IMG/VR virus record: IMGVR_UViG_3300026484_000053
Location: 124,001 to 188,000 of that record
Strand: one strand, 5' to 3'
Origin: a virus
DNA length: 64,000 nt
A program made the translations under genes and the position numbers. Under the pieces are notes generated by a model. It did not search any database and had not been told where the DNA came from. It saw nothing but the letters and a program-made list of their open reading frames with translations. Within the stretch, counting starts at the first letter, position 1. Each line of letters opens with the position of its first letter. Positions 6,112 to 52,072 of this stretch are shown one piece after another.

Positions 6112-7377
6112 CTATTCTCCATCTGCGAAGTCCCATGGTACTTCTATTGTACCATCGAATTCTTTAGTCTTAACGTAGAACGCTGTAATTTCTTTAGCGT
6201 CGCCATCTATCTGCATTAATTCGAAGTTCGTGCTACTATCTGGGTTAGTAAGATCAGGTACAAATACTTGGAATTTCTTTTCAGAAACGTCACTACTTGG
6301 GTATGATTTAACTAATTCTATAACAGTACTAGCATCATCTCCTATAATCTCAGCTACTTTATCTAAGAAGTATTCTTTAACTTTTAATCCAGGTACAGGT
6401 ATAGCAACCATTTGGAATCGGTTAGGTTGAAGTATAATAGTACCAGCTCCTCCACCTTCTGCACCTGATCCACAAACATCGAATGTAATAGTAAAGTCTT
6501 CTGTTTTTTCATGCCAGTCGTCTTCATCATCAGTAGTTCTAAGAACTAATCTATAATCTCCCTCGTATTGGAATGGATATTCATATGTTATTTCTGTACC
6601 ACTATCTATTTCTTCCCAAGTATCGTCTGTATCATCGTCTGGAGTGTCGTTGTCATCTTTTTTATATAATTTCCAAGTATAAGTTAATTCGTCTATCGCA
6701 TCATCTGTATCAGTACTTGTAGCTGTCCACTTATACGCAGGTATACATACACCTGCATCTTCTCTCGTGCTATCACTAACAGGTGGTATATTACTCATAT
6801 TCATTATTTTAGTCACGTCTGCATTCTGGGTTTGCCAACCATCCCAGTATTCTACTTTTAAGTGAAGTTCAATGCCGTCTTCTTTAGTTTCAAAAACGTG
6901 ACTAAACGTACTATCGTCTTCAACATCTACTACTTCATCAGTACCGTCTTTATAGTAATCTACATCTACTCTGTCTATTCTACCGTATTGTTTTGGTATC
7001 GTGTCGTCTCTAATATCATCGTGTTCTTGCGTAAATTCGACAGTATCTAGAACAGTTGGAGCTGCTGGAGTCCAACTAAAATCCAATACAGGTGTTTCAT
7101 ATACAAGAGCTTCTACATCTAAGTTTGTCTCGTGTTGGTATATATTATCCCATCCATCATTAAAATCTACTTCTGTATGTATGTGTTTAGCACCAGAACT
7201 TTCGTATATTTTATTTTGCGTATCTGTATTTACTTCATCTGTTAACGTAGTATCGTTATTAGAACCATCTAAAAGAGTATCTTCTATTAACCAATCAAGA
7301 GTATCTATTTGCACAGCTGTGTTGTCGTCTTGAACGTTCCAAGTATATCGTACCGTTTCTCTACCGTATATTGCCAT
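6112..7377 (-). CDS. Ig/PKD-repeat virion protein
   Basis: 421 residues, very rich in Asp and Thr. Three or four Ig-like repeats carry the FNDGWDN and YWDGWQT turn motif. Near residue 310 a glycine-rich hinge (GSGAEGGGAG) separates them from a different C-terminal domain of about 110 residues (ILQPNRFQMVAIPVPGLKVK onward, ending EVPWDFADGE). That domain resembles the C-terminal half of the 9941 gene in layout (FELMQIDGDAKEI versus FSLMQTDEDDNLV). Its start overlaps the stop of the 7377 gene by one base (operon). Probably a fibre or adhesin subunit. Confidence 0.65.
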   Translation of the reverse strand: MAIYGRETVRYTWNVQDDNTAVQIDTLDWLIEDTLLDGSNNDTTLTDEVNTDTQNKIYESSGAKHIHTEVDFNDGWDNIYQHETNLDVEALVYETPVLDFSWTPAAPTVLDTVEFTQEHDDIRDDTIPKQYGRIDRVDVDYYKDGTDEVVDVEDDSTFSHVFETKEDGIELHLKVEYWDGWQTQNADVTKIMNMSNIPPVSDSTREDAGVCIPAYKWTATSTDTDDAIDELTYTWKLYKKDDNDTPDDDTDDTWEEIDSGTEITYEYPFQYEGDYRLVLRTTDDEDDWHEKTEDFTITFDVCGSGAEGGGAGTIILQPNRFQMVAIPVPGLKVKEYFLDKVAEIIGDDASTVIELVKSYPSSDVSEKKFQVFVPDLTNPDSSTNFELMQIDGDAKEITAFYVKTKEFDGTIEVPWDFADGE

Positions 7378-9902
7378 TAGTGTGTGTACCCCTCTACATT
7401 AGTCTCATAAGTTATAGCTGAGCTGAGCTCAAATGGCGTTGCTTCAAAATCTCTATCTGTTTCATAGTAAACTACTCCACCATTACCAGATGTATTGTCT
7501 TCTCCAATCGTAGCGTCATCAGTATCATCTCTCCAACCGGTATCTATTCTAACTTGTAAATGAACATTTTTATTCAGGTTAGACGACGTAGCGCCATCTA
7601 TAGCTGTGTAAGGTTTTCTACTTGGTGTCTGCCAAGTAAACGCTTGATCTGCTCTTACTTGTTCATCATCTCTAATTGTAATTACGTCGTTATCAGTACC
7701 GAACTCAACGTCATTAAAAGTCCACTTTTCGTCTAGCTCTCTAGACGTATCTCCTGTACTATCATTTGTATAGAGTACTTCCATCTTACCAATTGTTTCA
7801 GTATTATTAGCTATAACAGGCGTAAGTAAATAATCCATTTTTGTCACTACTTTAGTTAAATGCACTTCTCTCTCGCAATAACCGTCATCGTAGTAATAAG
7901 TCATTGTAACGTTTTCATCAGTATTATCTTGGAACTTATGAGTAGGTTGTAAATCCTTATCTGTATCGTGAGATATAGTTTGTGTATTATCAACTATATC
8001 GTTACCGTAATCTGAGCTGTCAGGATTCCATTTATTATAATGATCTTCTATAGTCCAACTATAAGATCTAAATCTGTTATCGTCATCAGTACTTTCGTTA
8101 GTAAATGTAACTACCTGCGTTCTATCAGTAGGAGTAATGTCCCAAGAGAATTTAGCTTCTAATCCTTCGTACACTATTGGAGTTAACGTATGAGATATTC
8201 TTTTAGTTTGCATCTGATATCCATCATCGTATCGTATAGTTAATTCTACTGTATGCTCGTCTGTGTTTTGGTAATTATGCGACAATAAAGTATCTTTATC
8301 AAGGTCAAGATTAGTTTCGGAGTTATCTGTATCTGCTCCTGGGTTTGGGTTGTCTAGATTGCATGCCTTATATTCGTCATCCGTACTCCAGTCTATTGTA
8401 TATCCTATATCAAAACCATCTTGGGAATATTCAGAACTTGTGTTAGTACAGTCTACTTGTACTGCTCTACCTTGTGGAGCAACGTCGCTAATAGTAAATG
8501 AAGGCGTTACGTCATATTTTACAGGTGTAACTGTGTGAGTAATTGTATCTGTAACGTCTTTCCATCCATCACTGTAAGTTATTACTACAGTAACTTGTTT
8601 AGTATCTAATGAATGAAATTTAACAACTGGTTTTTCTGTATCGCCTATATCATAAGCATTATCTACTGATTGTGTATTATCTGAACTTCCTTCATCGAAT
8701 AAACTAGTTTCGTCTACGTCGAATGTATATAAGTCAGTATCTGGTGCTGGATAGTTATCTTCCATAGTCCAATCATATCTAGATATTTTATCTGTATCTC
8801 CTGAAGTATTAGCAGGATCAAACGTTACGTCTTGGTTTCTATTTCTAGGTTCTGCATCCCATGTGAACTCAGGAACTATAGTAAAAGGATAGATATCTAT
8901 ATATTGTACATCTTGAACTTCTAGGTCGTCAAATCCGTCATTCCAATAACATATAAGAGTTATCTTCTTAGTACCTTCACTCTGGAAAGCATGAGTTGGT
9001 TCGTCAGCGTATTCAGCATCTATGGTTTGAGTATTGTCACTTCCATCTTGGTTTTCATCTTCAATTATCCACTTGTAGTAATAAGGATCACTAAGTCTAT
9101 CATCTAAACAAGTCGTATCGTTATGGAAAGTTATTAGCTCTTGACCTTTTATTTTACTTCCATCCCAGTCATTAGTTTCTGTTGGTGTCCAACTAAAATC
9201 CATTATAGGTTCGTTATACTTTATAGTTATATCTTTACTTACTTCTGTAAATGTATCCCATTTTTCCTTAACTCTCATCTTAAGAGTATAATTTCCACTA
9301 GCTAAAAACGAATACGAATCGTTAGTGTTGTTAGTAATTTCTCTATCTTCTATTTCGTGCCATGTGTATGTAGTATCTATTAGTTGATGACCATCAAACA
9401 TTGCTACGTTATCATATGTTAGTTTTTGACTTGTGTCTTCTCCATAGTCATGCTCTAACCAAGATGTATTTGTATAACTATCTTCTGTCATAGTATAATT
9501 ATGCTGAGTAAGAGTTGCGTCTGGAAATGAGTAAGAGTCTATAATAGGTACTCTTTTAGGTTCCATTGTTATGTTTATTTCTAGGTCATCATCATTAGGT
9601 ATAACGTGTTGATGAAATACAGCGTCTGTTAAGTCAAGAGAGTCTATATTTTCTCCACCGCCTAACATATACGCTGTGTAGAATTTATCAGATGTTTTCT
9701 TGTAAATTCCTTCAGAACCAAGGATATTATCATCTTCACATGAGTAAGTGTAATATCCATTAGCATCTGAAGTGTATTTCTCTGTACTCCATCTACTATC
9801 GTCTGATCCACTATCCACTTTCTGGAAATACGGTAAAACTGTAACGCCGTCAAGTTTGTTTCCAGCTTCGTCTTTTATAACGCCGTATACTGAGTATCCC
9901 AT
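7377..9902 (-). CDS. Large PKD-repeat adhesin with N-terminal CarboxypepD_reg-like domain
   Basis: 841 residues; ATG 9902 has a perfect AAGGAGG 6 bases upstream and a late box at 9925-9932. Residues 1-90 (YSVYGVIKDEAGNKLDGVTV, then SDANGYYTYSC) match the carboxypeptidase-regulatory-like beta-sandwich. About six PKD/Ig-like repeats follow, each ending in an aromatic-DGW/F/Y turn (CYWNDGFDD, TYSDGWKD, RYDDGYQM, YYDDGYCE). No enzymatic motif is seen. This is probably a long rod on the virion or tail that contacts the host surface; the acidic repeats may bind calcium. Confidence 0.7.
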   Translation of the reverse strand: MGYSVYGVIKDEAGNKLDGVTVLPYFQKVDSGSDDSRWSTEKYTSDANGYYTYSCEDDNILGSEGIYKKTSDKFYTAYMLGGGENIDSLDLTDAVFHQHVIPNDDDLEINITMEPKRVPIIDSYSFPDATLTQHNYTMTEDSYTNTSWLEHDYGEDTSQKLTYDNVAMFDGHQLIDTTYTWHEIEDREITNNTNDSYSFLASGNYTLKMRVKEKWDTFTEVSKDITIKYNEPIMDFSWTPTETNDWDGSKIKGQELITFHNDTTCLDDRLSDPYYYKWIIEDENQDGSDNTQTIDAEYADEPTHAFQSEGTKKITLICYWNDGFDDLEVQDVQYIDIYPFTIVPEFTWDAEPRNRNQDVTFDPANTSGDTDKISRYDWTMEDNYPAPDTDLYTFDVDETSLFDEGSSDNTQSVDNAYDIGDTEKPVVKFHSLDTKQVTVVITYSDGWKDVTDTITHTVTPVKYDVTPSFTISDVAPQGRAVQVDCTNTSSEYSQDGFDIGYTIDWSTDDEYKACNLDNPNPGADTDNSETNLDLDKDTLLSHNYQNTDEHTVELTIRYDDGYQMQTKRISHTLTPIVYEGLEAKFSWDITPTDRTQVVTFTNESTDDDNRFRSYSWTIEDHYNKWNPDSSDYGNDIVDNTQTISHDTDKDLQPTHKFQDNTDENVTMTYYYDDGYCEREVHLTKVVTKMDYLLTPVIANNTETIGKMEVLYTNDSTGDTSRELDEKWTFNDVEFGTDNDVITIRDDEQVRADQAFTWQTPSRKPYTAIDGATSSNLNKNVHLQVRIDTGWRDDTDDATIGEDNTSGNGGVVYYETDRDFEATPFELSSAITYETNVEGYTH

Positions 9903-23538: not shown

Positions 23539-25842
23539 TTATATAGTTTCTTTTAGATATTCGTGTTTTACTTCTTCAGCTGTTGTATGAACATCCTTAT
23601 AAGTCATTTTTCTCATCTGATAATTAGATTCGTCCATCCATCTAGGTAACGTACCGTCAGGTAAAGCATTAATAAAAAACTTAGTTCCTCTATAATCGTC
23701 TCTATCATCAAAATCCATACCTTTAACTAAAGCTCCATTAATATAGAATTTTATTACACTACCGTCTGAGCATATGTCGATTTTATTCCATTCATACGTA
23801 AGAATTACTTTCTTAGAACTAACTGACTTCCTATTAAAATACACTTTAGCTACTTTGTTATCTACCTCTAGCGCTAACCAAGAACTCCAGTTATTATCTC
23901 CACTTCCTATGCTAAATATTCTTGACTCTTTATAGTTTCTAACATTAAGCCACAACGATATTGTAAATTCTCTAGCGTTATATCTGTCATCTGATTGAAG
24001 TTGAATTTTTTCTTTGTTTCTAACGTCTATTATGCCATCTGTAATAGAACAACTGTTACTTAAAGGACTTGGGTACATATTAGACGCTAACGTTTCGTGT
24101 ACTATATGATTTGTGTCTGAATTATCCTTTAATTCTCCAACTATATTTTCAAATTCTGACGAGCCAGGTTTTTTAACTAGGCATTTATACGAAGTTCCAC
24201 CAGAACCTTGGTAATGTCTGAATCTTAACTTATATGTCTTGCTAGAGTCTAGAAATTCCATCCCGGATTTCATAGCGTTTACGCCATGTCCACCATAATC
24301 TGCTACTATAACTTTGTTATCTATACTTAACTCTACTGCGTCGTCGCCTTGAAGTTCAAATTCATAATAACCATCTACAGAAGGGCAATATGTAGTCTGT
24401 ATAATAGTTATATAGTTTCTGTATGTCTTGAAATTGTTCCATTGTGTTAATTCAGAATTAACACCTTGTTGTACTTCATTAAACAAACAATTATTTTTAG
24501 TACCGTAAATTTTTTCAACACTGTCAAACTCAGCAAAATTGTCTATATGGTTAGTACCTCTTGTACCTGTGCTATAATATGACACCATACAACCAGGCAC
24601 AGTTGCACTTTCAGTGTTTTCTATTAGTAACTTTTCGTAAAGACCGGCTACCATACCTCCACTCATAGAATAATTAAATTCGTTAAGAGCATATATTTTA
24701 CCTCTAAGGCCGTAGTTAGAATTATATCTGTTATTACCGACTACCATAGAGTATCCGTAGTTTCGTATCTTAATAGCTCTATTAATAGTGCATACATACA
24801 GACCGTTTAAGTAAACAGTAATATGTTCTTTATCTCCGTTATATGTAATAATCAGATTGTTTACTACGCCTTCTCTTATTGTGCATATTTTAGTTGTACT
24901 TGAAGCAAAATTAAGATATAAGCTGCCATTACTAGCGTATAGATAATATTGCCCTAACTTGTATAGTATATATTGTATACTATGTTTGTCTGTTTGTTCA
25001 AAAATAATAGACATTGTAAACGGTTCTTCAGGATTGATACTTATACCTGGATCAAATTCTACGCTTGTTTTACCAGTAAACGAAGCGTCAATGTTATTCT
25101 CGAATCCTTTACATATACCAATACTCTTAGCTACAGTGTCTCTGACTTGTCCAGAAATTAAAGATAACGCGTCGTCAAATCTTGCACTAAAAAATAATCC
25201 TTTTTCAGTTTTGTCTTCTATAGGTACTTCAACTACACTGTCATCACTATAAATCTCTTGTAAGTATTGAGTTTTACTTTTTCTTTCGTTAACGTCGTAT
25301 AAACCATCCATCATTAACGTAGCGCTAACCGCTGTTACTGCTGTTATTCTAATTATTGGATCTTTAATTTGATTTTTAGCATCGAAATTAAATGTATTTA
25401 AAGAATGAACAGTTATTTTAGTCATTTTTGGTTCTATTATTTGAAATTCTATAGTACCAGATGCTGAAGTTATTACGACATTATCAAGAAATCCCTTAAA
25501 AATTATATCTTTAGTCTCTCCCCTAGTCATCGTAGCGCTTATGTTTTGGTAGTAATACATATTACTAGCTGCTGGAGCACTTCCGTCACCAGAATCTACA
25601 GTAACATTAGTTTGGGTTACCTTGTTATCAAGTATGTCAACGATTTTCTGAACAGAAGTCTCAGATACACCGTCTGCGTACATCATAGAAATGTTGCCAT
25701 CACTTATAGCTTTAACAATTTCATCTGTACCTTGTCTTAGCTGAGTAGCAGTACCCATATCTGAAATAGCCATCTCCTCGCCGCTATCTAAAGAAAGTCC
25801 CATCACGTCAAATTCTGCATCAGTTATGTTTTTAATAATCAT
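23539..25842 (-). CDS. LamG-PA14-LamG adhesin
   Basis: 767 residues. After a 200-residue N-terminal part, residues about 220-410 form a LamG/concanavalin jelly roll (PFTMSIIFEQTDKHSIQYIL, ITVYLNGLYVCTI, LRGKIYALNEFNYSMSGG). Residues about 430-570 match the PA14/GLEYA carbohydrate-binding fold (DGYYEFELQGDDAVELSIDN, then YKLRFRHYQGSGGTSYKCLV). Residues about 590-750 are a second LamG (FTISLWLNVRNYKESRIFSI, IKFYINGALVKGMDFDDRDD). All three domains bind sugars in known relatives, so this is a strong candidate receptor-binding protein. The order LamG-PA14-LamG is notable for a phage. Confidence 0.75.
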   Translation of the reverse strand: MIIKNITDAEFDVMGLSLDSGEEMAISDMGTATQLRQGTDEIVKAISDGNISMMYADGVSETSVQKIVDILDNKVTQTNVTVDSGDGSAPAASNMYYYQNISATMTRGETKDIIFKGFLDNVVITSASGTIEFQIIEPKMTKITVHSLNTFNFDAKNQIKDPIIRITAVTAVSATLMMDGLYDVNERKSKTQYLQEIYSDDSVVEVPIEDKTEKGLFFSARFDDALSLISGQVRDTVAKSIGICKGFENNIDASFTGKTSVEFDPGISINPEEPFTMSIIFEQTDKHSIQYILYKLGQYYLYASNGSLYLNFASSTTKICTIREGVVNNLIITYNGDKEHITVYLNGLYVCTINRAIKIRNYGYSMVVGNNRYNSNYGLRGKIYALNEFNYSMSGGMVAGLYEKLLIENTESATVPGCMVSYYSTGTRGTNHIDNFAEFDSVEKIYGTKNNCLFNEVQQGVNSELTQWNNFKTYRNYITIIQTTYCPSVDGYYEFELQGDDAVELSIDNKVIVADYGGHGVNAMKSGMEFLDSSKTYKLRFRHYQGSGGTSYKCLVKKPGSSEFENIVGELKDNSDTNHIVHETLASNMYPSPLSNSCSITDGIIDVRNKEKIQLQSDDRYNAREFTISLWLNVRNYKESRIFSIGSGDNNWSSWLALEVDNKVAKVYFNRKSVSSKKVILTYEWNKIDICSDGSVIKFYINGALVKGMDFDDRDDYRGTKFFINALPDGTLPRWMDESNYQMRKMTYKDVHTTAEEVKHEYLKETI

Positions 25843-27537: not shown

Positions 27538-28770
27538 TTATTTTTTCAGTTTTGCAGGTATTCTTATTTCAAAAGTAGTGCCCTTAGGTGTAGACTCAAC
27601 TATTTTAACATCGCCTTTTACTTCATTAAGCAAATACTTACTTAAATACATACCATTACCTCTAGTTTCGCCAACTCCTGCTTTAGTACTAAAATTAGCA
27701 TCGAATACTTTCTTCCATATATTTTTCTTTATACCATTACCGTTATCCATAAACCTAACTGTTAAATAGCCTTTATCAAAGTCTATAAAGGCTACATGTA
27801 TTCTGTTAGCGTTAGCCTCTATTGAGTTCTTAATATAGTTAATGAATATGCTCATTAAATCTGCGTTTTTCATCTTTTCAAGTCCATAATTAGCAAGTTC
27901 ACTATCAGTGGTAAACGTAAAGTTACTTTCTATAACAGACATTGTTTTAAATGAGCCTTTCATTATATTGGCAATTGACTTATTACCGTTACTGTATCTA
28001 AGATGCTTAAATCCTTTCATTTTTTCAAGGATGGCATATATTTGTTCAGATGAAGTTTTAATATACTCAAAATCTTCGTCAAGTTTTTTAAACGTATCGT
28101 ATCTTGTTATTCTGTCTTCACTAGCGTTGTCGAGAGCGTCGATACGTGCCTTTTCTTCTTTTAAAGTCTTTATCATAACGTTATGAACTTTCTCAATCTT
28201 GTTATCTATTACTTCTAATGGTGTATTTAGTTCATGATGTATGTTTTCTGTGATGTTTATCATTGTTTTGTTGGCTAGTAACGCTTCGTTACCAGATTGG
28301 CTTACTATATTTGATAGCTTCTCGTCTTTCATAATAATGATACTTATTATCATTAAGTAAAACAATAGAAAAGGTAGAGACAGCATAAATACGAATAACA
28401 ATTTTTCTTTTTGCGCTGCTACGTCAAAAGTTATAATGTATTGTGAACATCTAAAAAATAGCTCAAAAGTCTTGAAGTCAAAACCGTAGTCGTTATATTC
28501 TACGCTAGAAGATATATTAGAGCGTGTTATCCTTTTAAGCTCTTTCTTATCGTATATATACATTTTATCCTTAAAACTTATACTTTTACATTGAAATAGT
28601 TTACAAGTATCGTCAACGCTTATAGGATGACCTTGTTTTGCTGACATGTAAAGCATTTCTTGCTTTAATTCATTTATGTCGTAAATTTTTGACATAAAGA
28701 ATATAACACCAAAAGAAGCGAGAAGCATTATTAATGATCCAAGCATTCTTTCTATTATTTTAATTACCAT
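27538..28770 (-). CDS. Phage-encoded membrane sensor histidine kinase
   Basis: 410 residues. Two transmembrane helices (about 9-27 and 124-147) enclose a periplasmic segment with CKLFQC (56-61). The cytoplasmic part has an H-box ENIHHELNTPLEVI with phosphoacceptor His179, an N-box YIKNSIEA (Asn315), a DNGNGI G1-box (342-347), and GVGETRGNGMYLSKYLL (G2). All elements needed for autophosphorylation are present. A predicted coiled coil (200-250) links them. It lies 21 bases behind the Cache-like sensor gene and near the receiver protein at 29776, which suggests a complete two-component system. No HAMP domain is obvious. Confidence 0.85.
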   Translation of the reverse strand: MVIKIIERMLGSLIMLLASFGVIFFMSKIYDINELKQEMLYMSAKQGHPISVDDTCKLFQCKSISFKDKMYIYDKKELKRITRSNISSSVEYNDYGFDFKTFELFFRCSQYIITFDVAAQKEKLLFVFMLSLPFLLFYLMIISIIIMKDEKLSNIVSQSGNEALLANKTMINITENIHHELNTPLEVIDNKIEKVHNVMIKTLKEEKARIDALDNASEDRITRYDTFKKLDEDFEYIKTSSEQIYAILEKMKGFKHLRYSNGNKSIANIMKGSFKTMSVIESNFTFTTDSELANYGLEKMKNADLMSIFINYIKNSIEANANRIHVAFIDFDKGYLTVRFMDNGNGIKKNIWKKVFDANFSTKAGVGETRGNGMYLSKYLLNEVKGDVKIVESTPKGTTFEIRIPAKLKK

Positions 28771-28791
28771 ATCTAGGCTCTGTTTAGTTAC

Positions 28792-29388
28792 TTAATAAAA
28801 TATTACAGAATAAAGAGCTGCTACTATAAAACTACCAACTATAGCAAATATAGCACTGTTAAAATACGTCATAGACTCGTCGTGTTGAGCACCTTGACCA
28901 AGAGTATATATGTTATCCTTAATCTTAAACTGTTTAAAAGAAACGTATTCTACACTCTCGTCAAACAGCCATTCAGTATTACCAGTCTTATCAGTCTGTG
29001 CAGATAAAAATTCATTAACAGCGTTAATACAAGTTTCAGGTTTTTTAAACAATTTACAAACACTTTCACTAGTCATGAATAACGCGTCAATATTGTTTAG
29101 TTTACAGTCAGTACTAGAATCCCATATTAACATTTTATCAAAATGTCTAATTACAAAAACATCACCAGTTATTCCCATACTTCTAGAACCTTTAGCACAA
29201 ACATCAAGAGCGTTTATAAAATTACGTTCGTCTTCCAGAGAACCAGGTATACCTTCTATACATACTTTTATGTTATGTATATTAAGTTCATTTTGTGATA
29301 CAGCTGTGTTTTTAACACTATATTGTAACGTGGAAATTGTAACATAACATAACGCTACTAAAATAATTATACCAGATATTTTCTTCAT
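28792..29388 (-). CDS. Cache-like periplasmic sensor with two membrane anchors
   Basis: 198 residues. A signal-anchor helix (4-22) and a C-terminal helix (about 177-197) place the middle in the periplasm. That middle looks like a single Cache domain (GDVFVIRHFDKMLIWDSST, then NTEWLFDESVEYVSFKQFKI and YTLGQGAQHDE). Seven cysteines suggest disulfides. CKLF also occurs in the kinase's periplasmic part (SVCKLFKKPETC versus DTCKLFQCKS). It has no kinase domain, so it probably senses a ligand and signals by contact with the kinase downstream. AGAGG precedes the start; the bidirectional late box at 29410 is upstream. Confidence 0.65.
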   Translation of the reverse strand: MKKISGIIILVALCYVTISTLQYSVKNTAVSQNELNIHNIKVCIEGIPGSLEDERNFINALDVCAKGSRSMGITGDVFVIRHFDKMLIWDSSTDCKLNNIDALFMTSESVCKLFKKPETCINAVNEFLSAQTDKTGNTEWLFDESVEYVSFKQFKIKDNIYTLGQGAQHDESMTYFNSAIFAIVGSFIVAALYSVIFY

Positions 29389-29409
29389 ATTCTACCTCTG
29401 TTTTATGAT

Positions 29410-29421
29410 TATTTATAAATA
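29410..29421. promoter_or_regulatory. Palindromic bidirectional late promoter
   Basis: TATTTATAAATA is a perfect 12-bp palindrome that gives TATAAATA on both strands (29414-29421 plus, 29410-29417 minus). It lies between the divergent sensor gene (start 29388) and monooxygenase gene (start 29444), 22 bases from each. Confidence 0.65.
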
Positions 29422-29443
29422 ATTATAAACTTAAGGATGTAGA

Positions 29444-29749
29444 ATGATTTACTGTATAGCTGAATTTGAAGCAAAAGAAGGACGAGCTGATGAGTTATTT
29501 AACGCTCTTAAGCAATTAGAAAAAGAAACCAGGGTAGAACAAGGGTGTATTCAGTATATCGTTATGCGGAAAATATTAAATAATTACGCTAAAGGAGATC
29601 ATAAAGGTATTATATTTAATGAAATATGGGAAACTGAACAAGATTTTAATGCGCATAATGAAAGTAATCATGTACAAAAATTCTTTAAAGAACAATGCTT
29701 AAACGAAAACGGATCTACATTATCTTGGAATGTTAACTGCTTCAGCTAA
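29444..29749 (+). CDS. Antibiotic-biosynthesis-monooxygenase (YgiN-like) domain protein
   Basis: 101 residues, AAGGA 7 bases before the ATG. The ferredoxin-like ABM pattern is visible: AEFEAKEGRADELFNALKQL, then EQGCIQYIVMRK, FNEIWETEQDFNAH and HVQKFFKEQ. Relatives oxidise quinols or other small aromatics without cofactors, or serve as regulators. It is the only plus-strand gene inside the two-component region and shares a palindromic promoter with the sensor gene. It might supply or remove the sensed molecule; that link is inference. The domain call is fairly sure, the substrate unknown. Confidence 0.75.
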   Translation: MIYCIAEFEAKEGRADELFNALKQLEKETRVEQGCIQYIVMRKILNNYAKGDHKGIIFNEIWETEQDFNAHNESNHVQKFFKEQCLNENGSTLSWNVNCFS

Positions 29750-29762
29750 CAGAGCCTGTTAG
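29746..29762 (+). terminator. Hairpin at the end of the monooxygenase gene
   Basis: CTAACAG / CTGTTAG, 7-bp perfect stem with a 3-base loop, overlapping the stop codon. No U-run follows, so it may be a transcript stabiliser rather than a terminator. It separates convergent genes. Confidence 0.45.
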
Positions 29763-29775
29763 GATTCTATATAGC

Positions 29776-30534
29776 TTACTGCTTTGAATCCTTGTGCCAA
29801 CCAAATTTAGTGCTTATAAACTTTCTTCTAGAATCCATGTCTAGCGACGTTTTATAAAGCACATACTTATTAATATTATCTCCATTCTTAGCATTAAAAC
29901 GATCAATTAAAATTTGGTTAGTTTTAATGTAAGGATTAAGATTATTTCCTGTGTAAAATAGGAAATTCACATCTGGGTTTTTATCAATCATGTCACAATA
30001 TATGTCAACACCATTTAATTTTAAATTGCCATCAGCGGTCATTGTACTTCCACCTATAGTAATATCTATTATAGCGTATTTAATGTTCAAATTATGCGTC
30101 TGTTGAAGAATTCTATATCTGAATGCAGCAAGCTTAGAGCTTATGCAAAGCACGTTAAAATCACTTAATTTTATTCTGCCCTCTTCATCAAAGTACTCTA
30201 AGTCATCTTTTAGAAATGAAACAACACCTTCATTGTCATCTATAAGTAATATAGTTTTCTTTCCTTCTTTAAATTCTTTGCCAAGTTTAAAATTCCATCT
30301 ACAACTCTTCCAACACTGTTTTGATGTACAAGACGCATCAAACTCACAGTCGTATTTACTTTCTTTGTCGTCTTTAAATAGCTGACTAGAAGTTGGTTTT
30401 TGGGTATTACGTTTCTTATCTATTAATGTTTTAGCAGTTTTAGCAGTTTTAGCAGTTTTTGATACCACTACACTTTTAATAGAAGTAATCCAGTCTTTAA
30501 TTGTTTTAAATGTTTTATAAACGTATTTCATCAT
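29776..30534 (-). CDS. Response-regulator receiver protein with cysteine cluster
   Basis: 252 residues. Residues 93-245 form a receiver domain with acidic pair Asp99-Asp100 (ILLIDDNE), phosphoacceptor Asp157 (YAIIDITIGG), Thr195 (FLFYTGNN) and Lys228 (YVLYKTSLD). Before it lie four cysteines in CEFDASCTSKQCWKSC (63-78), a possible zinc or iron-sulfur site, and a KTAKTAKTAKT linker from short tandem DNA repeats. There is no DNA-binding output domain, so output is probably by protein contact. It follows the 30549 gene by 14 bases. It is the likely partner of the kinase at 27538. Confidence 0.8.
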   Translation of the reverse strand: MMKYVYKTFKTIKDWITSIKSVVVSKTAKTAKTAKTLIDKKRNTQKPTSSQLFKDDKESKYDCEFDASCTSKQCWKSCRWNFKLGKEFKEGKKTILLIDDNEGVVSFLKDDLEYFDEEGRIKLSDFNVLCISSKLAAFRYRILQQTHNLNIKYAIIDITIGGSTMTADGNLKLNGVDIYCDMIDKNPDVNFLFYTGNNLNPYIKTNQILIDRFNAKNGDNINKYVLYKTSLDMDSRRKFISTKFGWHKDSKQ

Positions 30535-30548
30535 TTCTCCTTTATACT

Positions 30549-31007
30549 TTAAATTATGAATTTTCCAACAGCAGTTATAACTTTAATAAACGCGTCTGGT
30601 GCAAATATTGCAGCAGCAGCTAAAGTTATAATAGCAGCGTACATCATAAGAACTTTAACATCTTTTAGATTTTTAGCCTTATTGAGCACGGCACTAAACG
30701 AATTTTGATTAGTATTTGCTTGTGTTGTTTTAGATTTAATCATTTCCTTCACTATTTTTTCTTTCTGATCTATTAATTGGTTAAAAGAGTCTACAATAAT
30801 GTCACTAAACATTGATTGATTGGTTTCTAATTTATCGTTAATAAAGACTATGAATTGTATTAATTCTTGGTGTTCTGGATACTTACTAGTAAGTAAAATT
30901 AAAGAATTATGAAAATCTTGTGTACTAGAACCTATGATTTCAAGTTGGTTATTAAAATCATGTTTAAGTTCATGTAAAGACTTTTCTATATCTTTTAAAT
31001 TTTCCAT
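30549..31007 (-). CDS. Tail-anchored protein with Spo0B/AgrC-type HDFNNQL motif
   Basis: 152 residues with AAAGGAG 6 bases before ATG 31007. Residues 12-28 read HELKHDFNNQLEIIGSS, the pattern of the dimerisation/phosphoacceptor helix in Spo0B- and AgrC-type kinases (H-D-F-x-N-x-L); His16 would be the phosphorylated residue. A long helical region follows, and a hydrophobic C-terminal segment (about 117-150) should anchor it in the membrane. No ATPase domain is present. It is transcribed with the receiver gene, so it might act as a phosphotransfer or phosphatase partner. It may also be a plain coiled-coil protein; the motif is short. Confidence 0.55.
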   Translation of the reverse strand: MENLKDIEKSLHELKHDFNNQLEIIGSSTQDFHNSLILLTSKYPEHQELIQFIVFINDKLETNQSMFSDIIVDSFNQLIDQKEKIVKEMIKSKTTQANTNQNSFSAVLNKAKNLKDVKVLMMYAAIITLAAAAIFAPDAFIKVITAVGKFII

Positions 31008-31031: not shown

Positions 31032-31039
31032 TATTTATC
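31032..31039 (-). promoter_or_regulatory. Late promoter box variant GATAAATA
   Basis: TATTTATC on the plus strand, 25 bases upstream of ATG 31007. It would drive the HDFNNQL protein and the receiver gene, and marks the divide between minus-strand late and plus-strand early transcription. Confidence 0.45.
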
Positions 31040-39635: not shown

Positions 39636-41963
39636 ATGACAAATGTACTAAACACAAAACCACAATGGGAAGAAGTAATTTCAAATACTAATAGATATCT
39701 ATATGAGCATTCTTACGAGTATGCAAAAAGACTATATGTAAGAGTATTTGATAACGATTTAAAAGATTCATATTTGTATGACCTAGGAACTCATTCATAC
39801 CAGCCTGAAATATTTGTTAGATGTACTGAAAAGACAGAATTTAAATCATTTGATAGGAAATATTATCTTAAGCAGTATCCATTTAATTCTATAGATGACA
39901 TGAAAAAAGAAGTACAGTACAATAAACGTGACAATGTTGTGTATTATGGTAATACATCAAGAATACAAAAAGTAATCAGAGACCACTGGAGTGATTCTCT
40001 TAAAGCTAACCACAAATTTAAGACGATGTGGTTAGATATTGAAACGTTATCAGGTGATATATATGCTAATGAAACTATAACTATAAAAGATAACGTTATA
40101 CAATGTAAAGATTTAGTTAAAATGGCTAGAAAGAAACAAAGTACTCTAACCAAAGGACAGAAATTAATACTTGAAGAAGAAGTTTTTGACCCTGAAGAAA
40201 ATAAAAAAGTAAAACTTAAAAACTCTTGCTTTTACAGAAAGCCTGGCTTTCCTAATTCAGATACTGCTAATTATCAAATTACGATGCTGCAAATGTACGA
40301 CACGCACACTAAAGAGTTTACAATATATGGTCTTAAAGAGTGGAATGGAACATATAAATCAAAATTTGGTAAAGTTAATTATTTCAAGTTCAGCAAAGAA
40401 AAAGATATGTTAAAAGCATTTATTAATCATTTCAGATTTACTAATCCTACAGCAGTTAACTCTTATAATGGATACGCATTCGATTACCCGTATATAGTTA
40501 ACAGAATGGAAAGAATTGGCGTAGACGCGTTAGCTCTGTCTCCAGTACGAAGTATAAAGAAAACAGAAAATATATCTACTAATGGCATGACGTATAAAGG
40601 CGTAGATATTAAAGGTGTATTCCTTTTAGATAGTATGGAATTCGTTATGAAGTACAGCTTTCTTAAAATACCATCTTTTAGCCTTAATGGAGTTGCTGCA
40701 GCGTTTAGACTTAATCCTAAAAAAGATACAAGTACATACCTGTCTTTCCAAGGATTTCAAGATGGTCATGGGTATGTATTTCCTAAAGAAGCACCGTCAG
40801 AGCCTGAAGCATTAAGAGTATATAAAACCCAATGTGATTACAGAGATGGTAAAATAAGTAAAGAAGAATTTAATTTAGTTATTTATGATAACTTCATGCA
40901 ATATTCTATCAGAGATGTCGAATTAATGTTAGAAATAGAAGAAAAAGCAAAAGTACAAGGTACAGCGCAGCTTATTGGATACATTTGTGGCGTTAATATG
41001 ACTGATGTGCAAGGTACTCTTAAGCAGTGGCTGAGTTATATGTATAATGACTGTATTAAAGATAATGTAGTTCTGCCTATAAAACAGCAAGACGCTAAAG
41101 ACGTAGTATATAAAGCTGGATGGACTACTTACTTTACTGGTAAAATTCATAAAGACGTAGTTTCATTTGATTATGCTGCACTTTATCCAAGTTGTATTAT
41201 ATCATGGAATATTGGAGCAGATACTTTAGTACCATTTGAAAAGTTGCCAGAAGAATTACAGTTAAAGTGTAAAGATAATTTTTATACAGAAGAAAACTTT
41301 GGTGAGCAAGGTCAATACACTTTAAAATATAAAAACGCTACAAATGATATACCTGAAGAGTTAGCATTCTTTTATAGACTTTATAACGATACTGAACTAC
41401 ATGATATGCTTAAGAAATATAATCTTAGTATGACTCCTAACTATCAATTCTATAGAAGAGATATAGAATCGTTCTCGGCCAAAGCAATGTCAGAGAATCT
41501 TGCTCTAAGAAATAAAGCTAAATATTCAGCCCAAGATCTTAATGCAAAATTAGAAGATATGAAAGCTAATAATTTAAAAGAAAAAGAACCGCAAAAATAC
41601 GACGAAATATTTGAAGAAGCGCAGTATCAAGAAGGATTATCAAACGCAGTTAAAACATTTAACAACTCGTATTATGGTAGTACTGCACTAAGCTCTAATC
41701 CTTTTAGTAATGGTAAACTTACGGCAGCAAGTATTACAACTGCTGGGAGATTAGCAGATATGATAGTTGCGTATGAGGTGCAGTCATATCTGCACGACAT
41801 TACAGCGACTGCTACTGTACGATTTGATGGATATTCTTATAGATGTAATGCATCTACTATTTTTACATGCGAAGATGGAGATAAAAGCATACTAACTTTA
41901 AATAACAATGATACGATAAAATGTATTACAAAATACATAAAAAAGGATAAAAATGCAGGGTAA
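39636..41963 (+). CDS. Family B DNA polymerase, N-terminal part (exonuclease, motifs A and B)
   Basis: 775 residues, AAAGGAG 6 bases before the ATG. The 3'-5' exonuclease has WLDIETLSGD (Asp134, Glu136) and NSYNGYAFDYPYIVNR, YSIRDVELM. Motif A is FDYAALYPSCIISW (Asp512); motif B is KTFNNSYYGSTALSS near residue 673. The gene stops before motif C, which is in the next gene. The last 35-40 residues (CNASTIFTCEDGDKSILTLN onward) do not look like T4-type polymerase and may be left from an insertion. Both parts together would be the T4 gp43-like replicative polymerase; split gp43 genes are known in Aeromonas T4-like phages. Confidence 0.9.
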   Translation: MTNVLNTKPQWEEVISNTNRYLYEHSYEYAKRLYVRVFDNDLKDSYLYDLGTHSYQPEIFVRCTEKTEFKSFDRKYYLKQYPFNSIDDMKKEVQYNKRDNVVYYGNTSRIQKVIRDHWSDSLKANHKFKTMWLDIETLSGDIYANETITIKDNVIQCKDLVKMARKKQSTLTKGQKLILEEEVFDPEENKKVKLKNSCFYRKPGFPNSDTANYQITMLQMYDTHTKEFTIYGLKEWNGTYKSKFGKVNYFKFSKEKDMLKAFINHFRFTNPTAVNSYNGYAFDYPYIVNRMERIGVDALALSPVRSIKKTENISTNGMTYKGVDIKGVFLLDSMEFVMKYSFLKIPSFSLNGVAAAFRLNPKKDTSTYLSFQGFQDGHGYVFPKEAPSEPEALRVYKTQCDYRDGKISKEEFNLVIYDNFMQYSIRDVELMLEIEEKAKVQGTAQLIGYICGVNMTDVQGTLKQWLSYMYNDCIKDNVVLPIKQQDAKDVVYKAGWTTYFTGKIHKDVVSFDYAALYPSCIISWNIGADTLVPFEKLPEELQLKCKDNFYTEENFGEQGQYTLKYKNATNDIPEELAFFYRLYNDTELHDMLKKYNLSMTPNYQFYRRDIESFSAKAMSENLALRNKAKYSAQDLNAKLEDMKANNLKEKEPQKYDEIFEEAQYQEGLSNAVKTFNNSYYGSTALSSNPFSNGKLTAASITTAGRLADMIVAYEVQSYLHDITATATVRFDGYSYRCNASTIFTCEDGDKSILTLNNNDTIKCITKYIKKDKNAG

Positions 41964-42915
41964 AAATTTTACTTTCACAAGAGATAAGCAAGAGAGGTTA
42001 TTACTAAATTCAGACACAGACAGTTTTTACATCTCTATAGCTCCTCTGATGGACGTATGGGACAGCAGGAACACTTCTGCAAGTGAAGAAAAAAGAATTG
42101 AAGTTCTTCTTAAGATAGTTAATACGAAAATACAACCAGTTATCGATAAAGTAGTTGATAACATTAACGATAGATTGAACTTATATGATAAAACTAGACT
42201 TATAGCTGAGAATGAAATAGTTGCAACTAGGTTTGTTAGTGCTGCTAGTAAAAGATATTTCGCACTCCAAGTAGCCAAAGATGGTACTATTCTTGCTAAG
42301 CCAAAGATAAAAGCTACTGGTATTTCTCTTATTGGTAAAGCTACGCCGCCAGAGGTTAAAGCCATACTTGAGCCGTTAACTAAGCTTATTCTTACCGAAG
42401 ATAATGACACGTTATTAACCTACATTAAAGAGAACAAAGATAGATTTTTAGCGTTAGATCCTTCTCAAGTAAGCAAAACACAAAGTGTTAATTCTCTTGA
42501 TTATCATTTCTGTAAAGCAGATAATACAGCTTGTGACTTCAAAATGGCTGTTAAAGGTACTAAAAGAGACGAAGAAAAGAATAAAAATCTTACAGCTCCT
42601 ATGAATAGTAAAGCAGCAATGGTGCATAACGCTATAGTAGATGAATTAGAGCTACAAAATATTTATGATTACGTGCATGAAGGTGATAACATTAAAATGT
42701 GTTATCTAAAAGTACCTAATCCTATTACTTACTCTTTAGACGTAGTAGGTTATAAAGATCCTAAATTTTTGGAAGACAGCGGTTTAACAAAATATGTTGA
42801 TTACGAGATACAATGGACAAAAGAATTTATAGCTAAGATTCTTCCAATTACTAATTCTCTTAAATGGACAGCAAATATAGAAGATATGTCTAATATTGAC
42901 GAAGACGAATGGTAG
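41953..42915 (+). CDS. Family B DNA polymerase, C-terminal part (motif C, thumb)
   Basis: 320 residues. ATG 41953 overlaps the stop of the first part by 11 bases in another frame and has AAAGGA 6 bases upstream, so both halves are made from one mRNA. Residues 17-26 (LLNSDTDSFY) hold motif C with catalytic Asp21 and Asp23. Then come KRYFALQV (KxY motif) and a thumb region. The C-terminus ends NIDEDEW, unlike the T4 clamp-binding tail. The halves must associate to be active because motifs A and C share the active site. Confidence 0.88.
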   Translation: MQGKNFTFTRDKQERLLLNSDTDSFYISIAPLMDVWDSRNTSASEEKRIEVLLKIVNTKIQPVIDKVVDNINDRLNLYDKTRLIAENEIVATRFVSAASKRYFALQVAKDGTILAKPKIKATGISLIGKATPPEVKAILEPLTKLILTEDNDTLLTYIKENKDRFLALDPSQVSKTQSVNSLDYHFCKADNTACDFKMAVKGTKRDEEKNKNLTAPMNSKAAMVHNAIVDELELQNIYDYVHEGDNIKMCYLKVPNPITYSLDVVGYKDPKFLEDSGLTKYVDYEIQWTKEFIAKILPITNSLKWTANIEDMSNIDEDEW

Positions 42916-50057: not shown

Positions 50058-50756
50058 ATGACAGAATCAGATATAGATTTAGAACACACTATAGTTAGGT
50101 CGCTTATGAGTAACTCAGAATTCTTTACTAAAACAGTGACTCAATTTGAGCCAAAATTGTTTGAAAGTACAGGTTCTGTAGCTATAATAGACCAAATAAA
50201 GAAGCACTTTATACAGTTTGATACCATGGGTACTTTTAAAGAGATTGGACTTGCTATTAAAGAAAATGTTAAAATGAACAAGCAATTAAAAGAGCAAGTA
50301 TTAGCAGAATTTAAGATGATCGCTAGAGACTCTGCAGTTAAAGACACAGACTTCTTGTTAGATATATCACTTAACTGGATAAAAAGAAGAAAATTAACGC
50401 TTGCTATATACAGCGCTGCTGACGTAATGCAACAAGGCGGCGAATTTGCACCTATTATAAAAGAAGTTGAAGAAGCAGTATCTGTGGATTTTTCTGGTAC
50501 TGAGAGTATAACATTTGATAAAGCTGTACAAGACAGAATAGATTACTACCAGAAGAAAGATGTGGTAATACCTTCAGGACTAGATACACTTGACAAGAAA
50601 ATGGGAGGAGGTTTTAGGCCTTCTTCACTTATTATGTTAGTATCACAAAGTCATGGAGGTAAATGCAGTGAATATAACGAAGAACTTGAGCTATATATAT
50701 CAGATGAAGAACTTGAGAGAATTAAAGCTTCTGGAGTACCCTATGAAGTCTTATAA
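50058..50756 (+). CDS. DnaB-type replicative helicase, N-part, ending in a short split N-intein
   Basis: 232 residues. Residues 1-202 are the N-terminal and first RecA-core part of a gp41/DnaB helicase (ITFDKAVQDRIDYYQKKDVV, then PSGLDTLDKKMGGGFRPSSL), breaking off in Walker A after SQSHGGK. Residue 203 is Cys, and the last 30 residues (CSEYNEELELYISDEELERI onward) do not belong to helicases; they fit intein block A. The matching C-intein and the rest of Walker A start the next gene. Protein trans-splicing should join the halves. A 30-residue N-intein is unusually short, as in AceL-TerL-type atypical split inteins. Confidence 0.88.
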   Translation: MTESDIDLEHTIVRSLMSNSEFFTKTVTQFEPKLFESTGSVAIIDQIKKHFIQFDTMGTFKEIGLAIKENVKMNKQLKEQVLAEFKMIARDSAVKDTDFLLDISLNWIKRRKLTLAIYSAADVMQQGGEFAPIIKEVEEAVSVDFSGTESITFDKAVQDRIDYYQKKDVVIPSGLDTLDKKMGGGFRPSSLIMLVSQSHGGKCSEYNEELELYISDEELERIKASGVPYEVL

Positions 50757-50851: not shown

Positions 50852-52072
50852 ATGAATAAATCTAACGATACGCATAGCCAACATACTCAACATACTCAGC
50901 ATAAGCCTAAATTAAACAAGATAAAGATAAAGATAGGCGACTACTTCAAGTGCAAGAATCTAGACGGCACAGATGAGATTAATGTATTTAAAAAACAAAA
51001 TGAAGAAACATTTGTAAACACACCTACTGGATTAGCTCCTGTTCTTTCTATGGTTAAAAAAGAAAAGAACAGAATAATCGAAATTAAGACTAAGAACAGA
51101 AGTGCTAAAATAGCTGAAAGACACATATTTCCTCAAAAAGATGGCTCAAATGAATATGCTATAGATGCTGAATTTATAATGACTATAGACGGCGAAGAAA
51201 AGATTATAAGTAAACAATTTATAAAAGAAGATTACGTGTATGACATTAGTATACCTAAACCGCATGTTTATTATTCTGCTAATGGTATTTTACATCATAA
51301 TACCGCTCTTAAAGTATTCTTTGCTAGACAAATGTTATTTAAAAAGAAAAATGTACTATTCATATCCCTTGAAATGCCTAAATATGAAATTATGAAAAGA
51401 ATAGACGCCTCAATACTTGGCTGCGAAATTGGTGATTTACAAACTATGGACCAAGAACTTCTTTCTAAGAAAATAAACGATGCAGCACCTTTACTTGGAG
51501 ATTTAAGAGTAGTAGATTATAATGCTGGTACTCTTAACAGTAACGGTATTAAGTCACTTCTAGATGACTTAAAGATAAAAGAAGGATTTGTACCAGATTG
51601 CATATTTGTTGATTATATTGGACTTATGACTTCGGCAAAAGTATCAGATGCAGCAAACTCTTATGATAAAGGCGGCGCAGTTGCTGAAGATCTGCATGGT
51701 ATAGCTAAAAGCACCTACGATAGTAATGGCAATAAGGGTGTTATGCTATTTACGTCTACGCAAACAAATAGAGCATCGTATAATACAGTAGAAGCTGATG
51801 CAGCAAATATTAGTGAAAGTATGAAAATATTTATGACTGCAGATTATGCTATGATGCTGTTAAGTACAGATGTTATGAAAGATCAGAATCAACAAATGTG
51901 GAAAATCATCAAGAACAGATGGTCTGGTGACATGAGTACTATGATAGTACAACCAGACTTTGCAAGAGTAAACTATACAGAATATAACGACGCTGCAACA
52001 ACAGAGATTCAGATGGATAAAATTGAAGAGCAAGTATTTGATACTGGGCTTGATTTTGGATCTATTGGCTAA
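50852..52072 (+). CDS. DnaB-type replicative helicase, C-part, starting with a 150-residue C-intein
   Basis: 406 residues. Residues 1-150 are the C-intein: a low-complexity start (HSQHTQHTQHK), a Hint region with IIEIKTKNRSAKIAERHIFP (block B with its His), block F VYDISIPKPHVYYS and block G ANGILHHN. Thr151 is the +1 residue. The C-extein continues the P-loop (TALKVFFARQMLF), then ISLEMPKYEIMKRIDASILG, Walker B DCIFVDYIGLMTS, and FTSTQTNRAS. Joining GGK to TA restores Walker A. The split lies between blocks A and B. It is the essential fork helicase. Confidence 0.9.
   Translation: MNKSNDTHSQHTQHTQHKPKLNKIKIKIGDYFKCKNLDGTDEINVFKKQNEETFVNTPTGLAPVLSMVKKEKNRIIEIKTKNRSAKIAERHIFPQKDGSNEYAIDAEFIMTIDGEEKIISKQFIKEDYVYDISIPKPHVYYSANGILHHNTALKVFFARQMLFKKKNVLFISLEMPKYEIMKRIDASILGCEIGDLQTMDQELLSKKINDAAPLLGDLRVVDYNAGTLNSNGIKSLLDDLKIKEGFVPDCIFVDYIGLMTSAKVSDAANSYDKGGAVAEDLHGIAKSTYDSNGNKGVMLFTSTQTNRASYNTVEADAANISESMKIFMTADYAMMLLSTDVMKDQNQQMWKIIKNRWSGDMSTMIVQPDFARVNYTEYNDAATTEIQMDKIEEQVFDTGLDFGSIG

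Follow-up and report, generated by a model that had tools for sequence, protein, structure and literature searches.

The Clostridioides phage phiCDHM1 carries an agrBDC module in which AgrC is a host-derived HATPase_c kinase of peptide quorum sensing; the phage encodes no response regulator (PMC3901668). A phage-borne HATPase_c kinase is common to phiCDHM1 and the gene cassette described here, but the cassette encodes a receiver too. Among jumbo phages, the receiver-like cREC proteins have been reported solely in company with NAD+/ADP-ribose enzymes, never alongside histidine kinases (PMC7824862). cREC and the cassette receiver (REC) are both divergent phage receiver folds, whereas REC adjoins its own kinase, and this genomic context excludes it from the cREC family (PMC7824862). 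T4 lysis inhibition, with the holin T and the antiholins RI and RIII, is a precedent for an envelope signal that gates a holin (PMC11413866, PMC8385771). It proceeds by direct antiholin-holin binding, without kinase, receiver, or phosphate; what it would share with the cassette, by analogy, is that envelope sensing sets the lysis time. The pinholin gp63 of phage N4 has a cytoplasmic helical regulatory domain and a C-terminal anchor (PMC12642591), the same topology as that of the cassette protein TM152, although the two have no detectable homology and TM152 has no profile identity. The N4 "Receiver domain" is the name of a region rather than a REC fold (PMC12642591), and we rejected it as a counterpart of REC. 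We found no complete phage-encoded system of histidine kinase and receiver in the open-access papers searched.

The window analyzed here is a stretch of 64,000 nucleotides, bases 124001 to 188000 of a 193.7-kb IMG/VR virus record (G000). The core genes of G000 are of the T4 type (topoisomerase II subunits, DNA ligase, DNA polymerase, capsid, terminase, and others), with roughly 25 to 50% identity to those of Campylobacter phage CC_R7. The cassette, of which TM152 is the first gene, occupies the end of the minus-strand structural block; it is located upstream of tail-fibre-like genes and adjoins a plus-strand gene block. Its features, in window coordinates, are as follows.

27538 to 28770, minus strand: HK, a membrane histidine kinase of 410 aa (HATPase_c, residues, AF2 and Foldseek)
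28792 to 29388, minus strand: P198, 198 aa, a periplasmic domain flanked by two terminal TM helices (hydropathy, one homologue)
29410 to 29417, minus strand: exact T4-type late box TATAAATA, 22 nt before the P198 start
29414 to 29421, plus strand: opposite-strand TATAAATA, overlapping the P198 box, 23 nt before the ABM ORF
29444 to 29749, plus strand: ABM-domain ORF (antibiotic biosynthesis monooxygenase type; PF03992, 9.1e-16)
29776 to 30534, minus strand: REC, a stand-alone receiver of 252 aa (alignment of 20, AF2, Foldseek)
30549 to 31007, minus strand: TM152, a helical cytoplasmic-type domain and one C-terminal TM helix (19 homologues)
31032 to 31039, minus strand: imperfect late box GATAAATA, one mismatch, 32 nt before the TM152 start

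A preliminary description of this DNA had listed four linked minus-strand genes; all four ORFs are in place, but a fifth, the plus-strand ABM ORF, had been overlooked. This ORF sits antiparallel within the cassette, between REC and P198. It is missing from the same slot in the relatives read, and nothing indicates that it belongs to the cassette. Between REC and the ABM ORF, we found no terminator hairpin, the folding being no better than that of shuffled sequences (z = −0.68). The same description had placed two units under T4-type late boxes. The box before P198 is exact, whereas the one before TM152, GATAAATA, is imperfect. At about the latter's place, before the TM gene, the exact TATAAATA is found in five relatives (L003, L004, L010, L016, and L035). 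The motif is not overrepresented in the window (16 observed versus 20 expected); half of its copies (8/16) lie 12 to 65 nt before an ORF start, compared with 9.3% for permuted 8-mers (P = 3.6e-5). Judged from these motifs, the cassette is likely expressed late in infection.

Scans of viral contigs together with a genome scan yielded 29 further contigs with the cassette, or 30 with the window. Profile searches recovered the order TM-REC-HK in 24 of the 30 viral contigs. The contig end falls within the cassette in L035 and L011, and an unassigned ORF, of 192 to 207 aa, takes the TM place in L077 and L082. Pairwise distances of the three proteins were correlated (r = 0.78 to 0.83; HK-REC, 0.83; HK-TM, 0.78), with none of 2,000 permutations as high, which as expected fits coinheritance, although correlation alone does not prove contact between the proteins. 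The conserved order and correlated divergence together indicate that the cassette is one inherited unit. Searches of 50,697 phage records with HK, REC, TM152, and the proteins of several relatives gave no cognate; apart from one weak match, to a short record of a Listeria phage, nothing was retrieved. The set was likewise absent from 84,980 species genomes in one motif scan, except for a single contig (L016; QMNM01000115.1; 5.8 kb) that is filed under a Cloacimonadota MAG and carries the phage cassette; it looks like a phage contig and is probably misbinned phage DNA. A search for a cellular ancestor returned generic kinases only and no close source. The cassette thus appears to be confined to phages.

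The kinase assignment is supported by profile, residues, and fold. HATPase_c (PF02518) matched HK at an E value of 2.6e-14 (54 bits, against a curated cutoff of 26.4), in agreement with the domain first proposed. The Pfam HisKA profile stayed below threshold (E = 0.099), a departure from cellular HisKA-type systems, yet the Foldseek matches of the AlphaFold model (mean pLDDT, 75) were solved HisKA kinases. HK has the features of the HisKA/HATPase_c class: an H-box histidine, N, G1, and G2 boxes, and two TM helices with a periplasmic domain. The H-box reads H179-E180-x-x-T183-P184, and H179, named as the kinase site from the outset, is invariant along with E180 and P184 in all 21 homologues. 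The N-box contains N311 and N315, and the G-boxes contain G344/G346 and G371/G373; N311, N315, D342, G371, and G373 are present in every row covering them (19 to 20 rows). Hydropathy places the TM helices at residues ∼2 to 20 and 124 to 142, a two-TM layout found in most homologues, and the periplasmic domain carries a conserved cysteine pair (C56 and C61).

The receiver assignment is supported by residues and fold. No Pfam family, including Response_reg, matched REC, and Response_reg on its relatives was weak at best (e.g., 0.024 and 0.054). The AF2 model, however, has the (βα)5 fold, so that the profile check suggested for this protein failed in Pfam while the receiver itself was recovered by structure. 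Foldseek gave 77 PDB matches at an E value of ≤0.001, the best 50 of which were all receiver-domain proteins; among the matches listed, Spo0F was the best (5e-6). In the model, D99/D100 follow strand 1, D157 lies at the end of strand 3, T195 is on strand 4, and K228 follows strand 5. An alignment of 20 homologues identifies D99/D100 as the pocket and D157 as the predicted phospho-acceptor, the latter being the site originally named: all three aspartates are kept in 20/20, T195 is threonine in 19 and serine in the other one, and K228 is kept in 19/20. The long loop after D157 and the missing Pfam match set REC apart from the receivers of cellular HisKA-type systems. Viral proteins matching the REC fold were response regulators from further uncultured phages and kinases from giant viruses, at ∼15% identity. 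As anticipated, we found no output domain in REC, DNA binding or other. The N-terminal ∼90 aa are variable and include four cysteines in the window copy. This segment is Cys rich in the window, L003, L004, L015, L016, L035, and L036, with C-x2-C-x5-C in several copies, and is possibly a metal or Fe-S site; other copies lack it.

HK and REC are therefore firmly a sensor-kinase/receiver signaling pair, complete as the preliminary description held, with the catalytic residues kept across homologues of both proteins. They share with cellular HisKA-type systems (HK853-RR468, Spo0F-type receivers), which are also among their Foldseek matches, the same H-, N-, and G-boxes and a (βα)5 receiver with D/D/D/T/K residues; unlike those systems, the cassette is seen only in phage-type contigs, ordered with a tail-anchored partner. 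The output of the pair we infer. It could lie in the host: HK might phosphorylate host regulators, or REC might change motility or stress responses by serving as a phosphate sink or a CheY-like mimic. Such rewiring would suit a stand-alone REC whose fold is, among the matches listed, nearest to Spo0F and CheY-like domains, and a host regulator is the presumed partner of phiCDHM1 AgrC (PMC3901668). We nevertheless regard it as improbable and favor an internal pathway because HK comes with a REC of its own and with a conserved membrane partner, all three diverging in step.

That partner, TM152, was correctly described as tail anchored: its single TM helix is C-terminal (residues 117 to 135), and a lone C-terminal TM segment is predicted in nearly all 19 homologues. 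The same description had assigned its HDFNNQL motif to a phosphorelay, in which His16 would be a Spo0B-like phosphotransfer site. SPOB_a does align with residues 2 to 25 (E = 0.0021), but the score is below the curated cutoff, and the residue is histidine in only 1 of 19 homologues, with N, K, D, R, T, I, Q, L, or S in the other 18. The Response_reg profile also found no second receiver in G000. With the presumptive phospho-acceptor not conserved, we rejected TM152 as an HPt/Spo0B phosphotransfer protein and consider a relay through it extremely improbable. As part of an internal pathway, TM152 is instead a candidate output protein.

On the input side, P198 had been called a Cache-like sensor, an assignment that profile searches did not support: no Cache family matched it at an E value of ≤1 or its homologue at an E value of ≤0.5, and searches of Pfam and PHROG gave no match of any kind. 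Its sole homologue (L073:6281-6892; 38% identity; E = 6e-37) surfaced through the HK scan, a direct viral scan for P198 relatives having found none. Because this homologue also lies between REC and HK, P198 is a genuine cassette gene, and it is probably the sensor partner of HK. Ten other contigs have, after HK, a gene for a small secreted protein, in which a G-W-x-R motif is invariant, and one for an outer-membrane-barrel-like protein of 360 to 420 aa (for example, the pair at L003:11206-12746, which has equivalents in nine other contigs and belongs to no Pfam family); two more contigs have the secreted protein without the barrel. The C-terminal residue is aromatic in all 10 barrel-like proteins, and 9 of them have a signal-peptide-like start, the exception being the broken ORF of L009. 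Among the G000 ORFs, profile searches for the two proteins turned up nothing convincing, and most other cassettes likewise lack both. In the window and L073, P198 occupies the REC-HK gap instead, and no locus has both P198 and the add-ons, which suggests that they are alternative sensor inputs.

The secreted and barrel-like proteins might, on the other hand, be the effectors themselves. The cassette would then sense envelope damage or adsorption and control the state of the outer membrane, serving superinfection exclusion or envelope remodeling rather than lysis. Their position after HK in 10 contigs and their aromatic ends and signal-like starts are consistent with this, whereas the lack of convincing matches to them in G000, their absence from most other cassettes, and the lack of a DNA-binding domain through which REC could regulate them, make it unlikely. 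The L009 locus raises a different question. Here (L009:9382-11998), alone among the homologues, HK has lost G344/G346 and with them the G1 box, and the barrel gene is split across two ORFs, through either decay or an assembly error. This might be expected if the cassette were a host two-component pair, recently captured and now decaying without function, but catalytic residues are kept in 20 to 21 homologues down to ∼23% identity and no close cellular source was found, so that we consider this very improbable.

The suggestion that the cassette times lysis found support in some relatives. A GH108 endolysin and a 3TM holin lie directly upstream of it in L038 and L039, a holin-like protein and Rz-type spanins lie directly upstream in L008, and a holin-like protein, spanins, and an endolysin lie directly downstream in L085; an M15-type endolysin is encoded close by in L053 and L073. 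In L066 and L058, the neighbors are possibly lysis associated, their labels not being firm. When whole records were searched, 12 had an endolysin, which lies within 2.5 kb of the cassette in 5 and farther away in 7; this is closer than random placement would give (P = 8e-4 by Fisher's test; P = 0.011 with one of each related pair dropped). The suggestion does not extend to G000, where the only endolysin found (68859 to 69416) is 82 kb from the cassette, and the lysis link is therefore a property of some relatives only.

Taken together, we read the cassette as a late, virus-specific membrane two-component system in which HK signals to REC, REC contacts TM152, and lysis is delayed or triggered, with a probability of about 45%. 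Phosphotransfer, TM152 as the output, and lysis as the controlled process are steps that we infer. HK would sit in the inner membrane and sense the periplasm or the state of the envelope, probably with P198 in this phage and probably with the secreted protein and an outer-membrane barrel elsewhere. It would autophosphorylate on His179 and pass the phosphate to Asp157 of REC; transfer in a single step is most likely, given the residues and established chemistry of these families and a TM152 histidine that is not conserved. Phosphorylated REC would most likely contact the cytoplasmic domain of TM152, the simplest output for a receiver that lacks an output domain and whose constant neighbor is TM152. 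TM152 would then delay or trigger lysis, making the cassette a signaling counterpart of T4 lysis inhibition. Lysis control is proposed as the purpose because of the link to lysis genes and the topology common to TM152 and N4 gp63.

A more elaborate form, in which an outer-membrane barrel, a periplasmic protein, the inner-membrane kinase, the receiver, and the tail-anchored output make up a trans-envelope, virus-only system that reads the envelope (e.g., superinfection) and gates lysis by phosphorylation, is possible but doubtful. Under the two-component reading, the cassette, found in ∼30 diverse uncultured phages, would add phosphotransfer to the known means of phage sensing (lysis inhibition, arbitrium, and quorum-sensing receptors) and opens lysis control outside T4 and N4 to experimental test. 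The same gene order in ∼30 phages and the lysis-gene neighbors in some of them suggest that phages may use bacterial-style signaling for lysis timing.

Some further features of these loci were observed. In L053, two receiver-like ORFs (6905 to 7312 and 7278 to 7709) lie directly 3′ of HK and match PF00072 at 2.1e-9 and 8.8e-5, and the first has no detectable relationship to the cassette REC. ClpX-like AAA+ proteins are encoded divergently from the TM gene in four relatives (L003:7419-8657, L004:7335-8510, L009:7039-8217, and L010:5146-6297), the L004 copy matching AAA_2 and, weakly, zf-C4_ClpX. Two replication genes of the window are split, each into two ORFs that match one CC_R7 gene: the DNA polymerase (39636 to 41963 and 41953 to 42915) and the replicative helicase (50058 to 50756 and 50852 to 52072). 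The window also encodes, at 23539 to 25842, a tail-fibre-like protein with Laminin_G_3 and PA14 domains.
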